This document shows positions 13,195 through 14,034 of a stretch of DNA of 37,465 nucleotides, in pieces. The stretch comes from Thermoleophilia bacterium (GTDB lineage Bacteria; Actinomycetota; Thermoleophilia; BMS3ABIN01). The DNA lies in contig JACUUL010000018.1 in assembly GCA_014859345.1 (NCBI GenBank), positions 1 to 37,465 of the forward strand. Direction: 5' to 3'. The position numbers and the translations under genes are program-made. Under the pieces are notes generated by a model. The model had not been told where the DNA came from and made no database searches. It saw only the letters and a program-made list of their open reading frames with translations. The first letter of the stretch is position 1, and each line of letters opens with the position of its first letter.

Positions 13195-13665
13195 TTAAGC
13201 CTGCGGCGATTCCCCGGTCTTCGAGGGCCTCAGCACCAGCGCCAGGATAAGCAGGATCACGCCCGTGACTATGAAGATGTCGGCAAGATTGAAGGCGGGC
13301 CAGTAGGAGAAATCGATGAAATCGGTGACGCTTTTCCTGGTGAAGCGATCGATGAGATTGCCGGAGCTGCCGGCCACAAGCAGTATGAGCGGCCAGAACA
13401 TATGGCCGTCGTTCCTGACCATCATCGCCGCGACTATCAGGATAAACACTACCATTGTGGTGACGAAGACGATCAGGCTGCCGTAATTGCCCAGCATGCC
13501 GAAGGCGATGCCGGGGTTCTGGATGTGGTTTATGCTGAAAAAAGACAGTACCTGAACGGATTCGCCCGGGTCCAGGAAATACCGCACCAGGAACTTGGTT
13601 GCCTGGTCAGCAGCCACCAGCAACAGGATGATTAAAAACAACAGGGGTGATCTCCCGTGCAACAA
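13195..13665 (-). CDS. lspA: Lipoprotein signal peptidase (signal peptidase II)
   Basis: A 156-residue protein with four membrane helices and the five LspA motifs: Asp20 in ADQATK, NPGIAFG (50-56), SGNLIDR with catalytic Asp106, and FNLAD with catalytic Asp129. It cleaves prolipoprotein signal peptides after lipidation. The start is TTG, 3 nt after the stop of the preceding TraR/DksA-type frame. Its AGGAG ribosome site lies inside the end of that frame, so translation through the upstream gene could matter for lspA expression. Confidence 0.95.
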   Translation of the reverse strand: MLHGRSPLLFLIILLLVAADQATKFLVRYFLDPGESVQVLSFFSINHIQNPGIAFGMLGNYGSLIVFVTTMVVFILIVAAMMVRNDGHMFWPLILLVAGSSGNLIDRFTRKSVTDFIDFSYWPAFNLADIFIVTGVILLILALVLRPSKTGESPQA

Positions 13666-13668
13666 ATT

Positions 13669-14034
13669 CTATCTCTCCTCTTCCCGGCGTTTGCATTCAA
13701 CGCATTTGGAAGCCCATGGCACGGCCTGAAGGCGCGCGGCGGGGATCCGCCTGCCGCAGGCTTCGCATCTGCCATAATTACCCTACTCGGCTGCCTTGAG
13801 AGCCCGGTCCACCTTCTTCAGTATGAACCTTGCGTTCTCTTCCATTGTCAAATCCATGTCTCTTCCCGCTGCCAGCGCCGCGACATCCGCCATCCGGTCG
13901 TCACGGTTTGATTCCTCGATCAGCTCACGCTGGGCCGAATCAACATCCCTTTCGAGGCGCTCCAGGTCGCTCCTGAGCTTGTTCTGGATATCTTTCAGCC
14001 TTTCAATCTGCTTTTTCGCCGGTCCCGGGGACAT
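13669..14034 (-). pseudogene. TraR/DksA-type zinc-finger protein gene interrupted by an in-frame amber codon
   Basis: The first 83 codons encode the coiled-coil N-terminal half of a DksA/TraR-like protein, starting at ATG 14034 with AGGAGG upstream. They end at a TAG (13783-13785). In the same frame the next 37 codons encode a textbook C4 zinc finger: GNYGRCEACG, then IPAARLQAVPWASKCVECK, ending at a second TAG (13669-13671). All four cysteines and the family's YG.C..CG and RL.AVP.A..C..C pattern are intact. With one sense codon instead of the first TAG the protein would be 121 residues, the usual length. GAG to TAG would be a single base change. Synteny supports identity: the YlyA/TraR gene sits before lspA in many Gram-positives. 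Whether it is a recent nonsense mutation, readthrough or an assembly error is open. Confidence 0.85.

Follow-up and report, generated by a model that had tools for sequence, protein, structure and literature searches.

The window, meaning the whole stretch of DNA that was analyzed (37,465 nucleotides), is contig C86 of a 2.08 Mb Thermoleophilia draft genome in 122 contigs. On its minus strand, a DksA/TraR-type open reading frame (hereafter the TraR gene) extends from 14034 to 13669 and reads as 83 codons, a TAG, 37 further codons in the same frame, and a second TAG, as claimed in the preliminary description. The interrupted gene and the neighboring lspA gene comprise the following features:

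13786..14034, minus strand: 5' portion (83 codons) of the DksA/TraR-like gene, starting with ATG at 14034 and lacking the zinc finger; aligned with orthologues
13783..13785, minus strand: in-frame TAG, codon 84; found in none of the 26 aligned orthologues
13672..13782, minus strand: 3' half with an intact C4 zinc finger (CEAC...CVEC), 37 codons; PF01258, 48.7 bits
13669..13671, minus strand: second TAG, the normal end of the gene; orthologues stop at the same alignment position
about 13673..13680, minus strand: stretch resembling a ribosome site, GAGGAGAG, lying within the 3' half and putatively serving lspA
13195..13665, minus strand: lspA with a TTG start at 13665, sharing the reading frame of the TraR gene; TIGR00077, 98.8 bits, and PF01252, 115.6 bits

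The 37 codons downstream of the first TAG encode GNYGRCEACGRRIPAARLQAVPWASKCVECKRREEER, in which all four finger cysteines are kept (C90, C93, C111, and C114). On their own, these residues score 48.7 bits against PF01258 (E 7e-13, cut-off 24.9), well above any chance open frame, and the protein obtained by reading through the stop scores 44.8 bits, also above the curated cut-off of 24.9. The earlier observation that the zinc finger is whole beyond the stop is thus borne out. A search of the whole 2.08 Mb genome identified no PF01258 match other than the TraR gene. Among NCBIfam models the best for the read-through protein is TIGR02890 (YteA), at 79.3 bits against a cut-off of 134.4; YteA is therefore the nearest model, but the TraR gene is not a member by the cut-off rule. 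In sum, the gene is like the DksA/TraR C4 zinc-finger proteins (PF01258) in its finger, and its length and its position next to lspA are as in relatives, while it differs from them by the TAG at codon 84 and by scores under the NCBIfam cut-offs.

The second TAG is separated from the TTG start of lspA by AAT, in agreement with the 3 nt originally described, and the placement of the lspA ribosome site inside the downstream half of the TraR gene was likewise recovered, as the putative site GAGGAGAG. The TraR gene and lspA share a reading frame (288 residues with two TAGs), so their products would be joined into one protein if both TAGs were decoded. In 30/30 loci compared (the window's own and 29 from relatives), lspA adjoins the TraR gene. 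Two relatives, G002 and G003 (loci L272 and L274), keep the order YggT-DivIVA-DUF167-lspA-RluD with the TraR gene missing between DUF167 and lspA. Since these genomes have lspA without the TraR gene in front, lspA is not reliant on coupling to TraR within the family. No account of the TraR-lspA arrangement came up in a search of the literature on TraR/DksA together with lspA.

The orthologue search covered 60 relatives, none of the same species or genus as the window genome, and a match to the TraR gene was found in 46 of them. Within the order the gene is present in 17 of 19 genomes, and an internal stop occurs only in the window's genome (0/16 others). Codon 84 is occupied in the 26 aligned orthologues by E (11), A (3), S (3), D (3), G (2), K (2), L (1), and N (1) and never by a stop; judged from these eight different residues, it is a variable, tolerant site. 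Furthermore, no internal stop or short form was seen among the relatives' full-length TraR matches inspected in the alignment. A shared UAG in orthologues had been put forward as the sign that would favor recoding, and the counts of 0/26 aligned and 0/16 in the order speak against it. The presence of the same locus without TraR in G002 and G003 indicates that the gene is dispensable, and the two losses look independent, as other sampled members of the genus of G002 (g3) retain the gene. Those of the nearest relatives that have named records come from metagenomes, and most carry the label Actinomycetes, Thermoleophilia, or Gaiellales. A contig-record search with the TraR protein gave no match, and one with the TraR alignment returned family members only, in a collection from which records very near the window genome may be left out.

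The state of the downstream half bears on the age of the stop. On a fixed topology, the window's TraR branch has a length of 0.49 in the upstream half against 0.63 in the downstream one, a family-scaled ratio of 1.9-fold; relaxation of the downstream half is not demonstrated by this value because three intact relatives have similar ratios (1.77 to 1.87). The codon score is coding-like upstream (0.38) and falls to -0.12 downstream, which was considered as a sign of decay and rejected, as the score falls in the same direction across this site in 15/15 intact orthologues compared. This drop consequently reflects zinc-finger composition rather than decay. With the downstream half free of clear decay, the stop event looks recent.

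In-frame stops elsewhere in the genome were sought by a scan for coding-like flanks in the same frame over about 1.18 Mb (57% of the genome), with candidate lists judged by eye, so that the counts are minimum estimates. With selenocysteine candidates set aside, four stops inside genes were found in this 57% (two TAG, one TAA, and one TGA). In addition to that of the TraR gene, these are a TAG in chaB at C25:6098-6100 (L182), where a Pfam ChaB match of 77.9 bits spans the stop and the copy in genome G007 is intact; a probable nonsense TAA at L250:734 in an ORF6N-domain gene, whose continuity across the stop is a reading of the downstream sequence because the domain match ends ahead of it; and a probable nonsense TGA at L191:16063 within a GT87 match. 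Four stops of mixed type are as expected from sporadic nonsense changes or base errors, and the two TAGs among them are too few to test for enrichment. Further TAG candidates at L171 and L234 were rejected, as they were judged by eye to mark the start of a neighboring gene and the natural end of a gene. At L171, near 18247 and 19020, there are two similar TAG-ended genes, each followed by a similar in-frame membrane-protein-like stretch, and the pairs look like a duplicated two-gene unit.

The same scan, over the same 57% of the genome, recovered in-frame TGAs that look like selenocysteine codons:

formate-dehydrogenase-like gene: in-frame TGA, recognized by eye
two thioredoxin-like genes: in-frame TGA, one of the genes tested against Pfam
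PCYCGC protein gene: in-frame TGA, probable selenoprotein
C8:16817-17602 and C8:18971-19741 (L279 and L283, both in L192): two tandem beta-propeller-like genes with a shared in-frame TGA (YT-U-DSG...)

The formate-dehydrogenase-like, the two thioredoxin-like, and the PCYCGC proteins are probable selenoproteins and are encoded at L209, L165:15427, L199:2803, and L267:254. A tRNA-Sec with a TCA anticodon lies at C38:2555-2646. The TGA of the beta-propeller-like genes is kept in a homologue (L280) from G001, a genome of another genus, and a further G001 homologue (L284) has Cys at the site. A conserved stem-loop, GGCGCTAGGTCTAGCGCC, is located just 3' of this TGA, with a compensatory change in L280. 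From these sequence comparisons the beta-propeller-like genes, which have no Pfam match above cut-off, are a candidate selenoprotein family. The likely recoding of UGA here resembles the TraR UAG in that the in-frame stop falls within a conserved domain. In contrast to the TraR UAG, which has none of these features, the beta-propeller UGA cases come with the tRNA-Sec, with UGA or Cys at the site in relatives, and with a downstream hairpin. Where this genome probably recodes a stop, it thus shows signs that are missing at the TraR UAG.

Against this background, it is improbable that UAG read-through yields a useful full-length TraR protein, whether by leakiness or by a suppressor tRNA hidden in an assembly gap. 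The conserved downstream half and the second amber in chaB are compatible with such a product, and in E. coli some degree of TAG read-through is documented (PMC11126739). The TraR gene also resembles cases of UAG recoding, by pyrrolysine or by a suppressor tRNA, in having an in-frame UAG within a conserved domain. It is unlike them in that the stop is unconserved, RF1 is present (482 bits, together with an RF2-type paralogue), and TAG is a common terminator, ending 293 of 996 called genes (about 29%; simple codon-score caller, 1.18 Mb). Additionally, the PylS part of the pyl search suggested in the preliminary description came out negative, the best score in a profile search of the genome being 22 bits against a cut-off of 178. 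No CTA anticodon was found at the loci around 34 RF00005 matches, in a tRNA set that is incomplete and also lacks Glu and His, a gap that leaves this reading some room. Nothing unusual in RNA structure lies 3' of the TraR TAG (folding z -0.66), and no Rfam family matched in a search covering the window, L182, and L192. Efficient suppression would, moreover, also fuse TraR to lspA, as the normal stop of the TraR gene is an in-frame TAG. Nothing indicates that read-through at this UAG is programmed, and the suggestion of regulated amber read-through into lspA found no support, as the stop is missing from the orthologues, PylS is absent, RF1 is present, the incomplete tRNA set showed no CTA anticodon, and the RNA past the stop has no unusual structure. 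In a narrower version, a gap-hidden suppressor tRNA would partly decode UAG and yield low levels of full-length TraR and ChaB beside normal termination; this is very improbable, although the TAG in chaB leaves a small chance of a shared amber effect.

Least probable of all is that the 83-residue product functions by itself as a shortened coiled-coil form. In its favor, the upstream half is undamaged, with coding-like codon usage; none of the aligned full-length orthologues is short, however, and the finger residues would not remain conserved after long disuse. A more serious contender, though still an unlikely one, is that the TraR gene of the population is intact and the TAG stems from faulty assembly or sequencing, or from a minority-strain base taken into the metagenome consensus. 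The draft state of the genome and the otherwise intact gene favor an error, and the four scattered stops, being of mixed type, are as compatible with base errors as with mutations. A published study, which did not assess MAGs, shows that assemblies can contain spurious internal stops, above all at low coverage (PMC11017572). On the other hand, the genes neighboring TraR in the window appear as unbroken open reading frames and internal stops were found in 0/27 ABC-ATPase matches, which argues against a high error rate. For the TraR TAG, a real lesion is favored over a consensus error.

Taken together, the TraR stop is most likely ordinary recent gene breakage or a draft base error and not a new reading of the code. 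The best explanation, which we consider probable, is that a dispensable DksA/TraR-like (YteA-type) regulator gene has acquired a recent single nonsense codon, in the lineage or in the sampled strain. The lesion is private among the order's genomes and the gene is dispensable, as seen in G002 and G003, as would be expected of a nonsense pseudogene. Of the three options originally offered, a recent nonsense mutation and an assembly error are still tenable, given the private stop, the tolerant site, and the lack of clear decay, while regulated read-through is without support. The zinc finger is part of the DksA/TraR family fold, and on this account the truncated product is probably inactive. In the proposed sequence of events, ribosomes would end at codon 84, the 83-residue piece without the finger would probably be inactive or degraded, and lspA would be translated from its own ribosome site. 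That every finger residue is kept would also fit read-through to a protein that still functions, or an intact gene whose sequence contains a base error. The case is like nonsense pseudogenes and spurious draft stops (PMC11017572) in having one private stop in an otherwise intact, dispensable gene.

If this UAG were in fact read as sense, it would be one of the rare cases of that kind outside pyrrolysine systems, with a working RF1 alongside. As it stands, the TraR UAG provides a worked negative beside likely UGA/selenocysteine recoding in one genome, and the comparison of loci shows that lspA persists without a TraR gene in front of it in two relatives.
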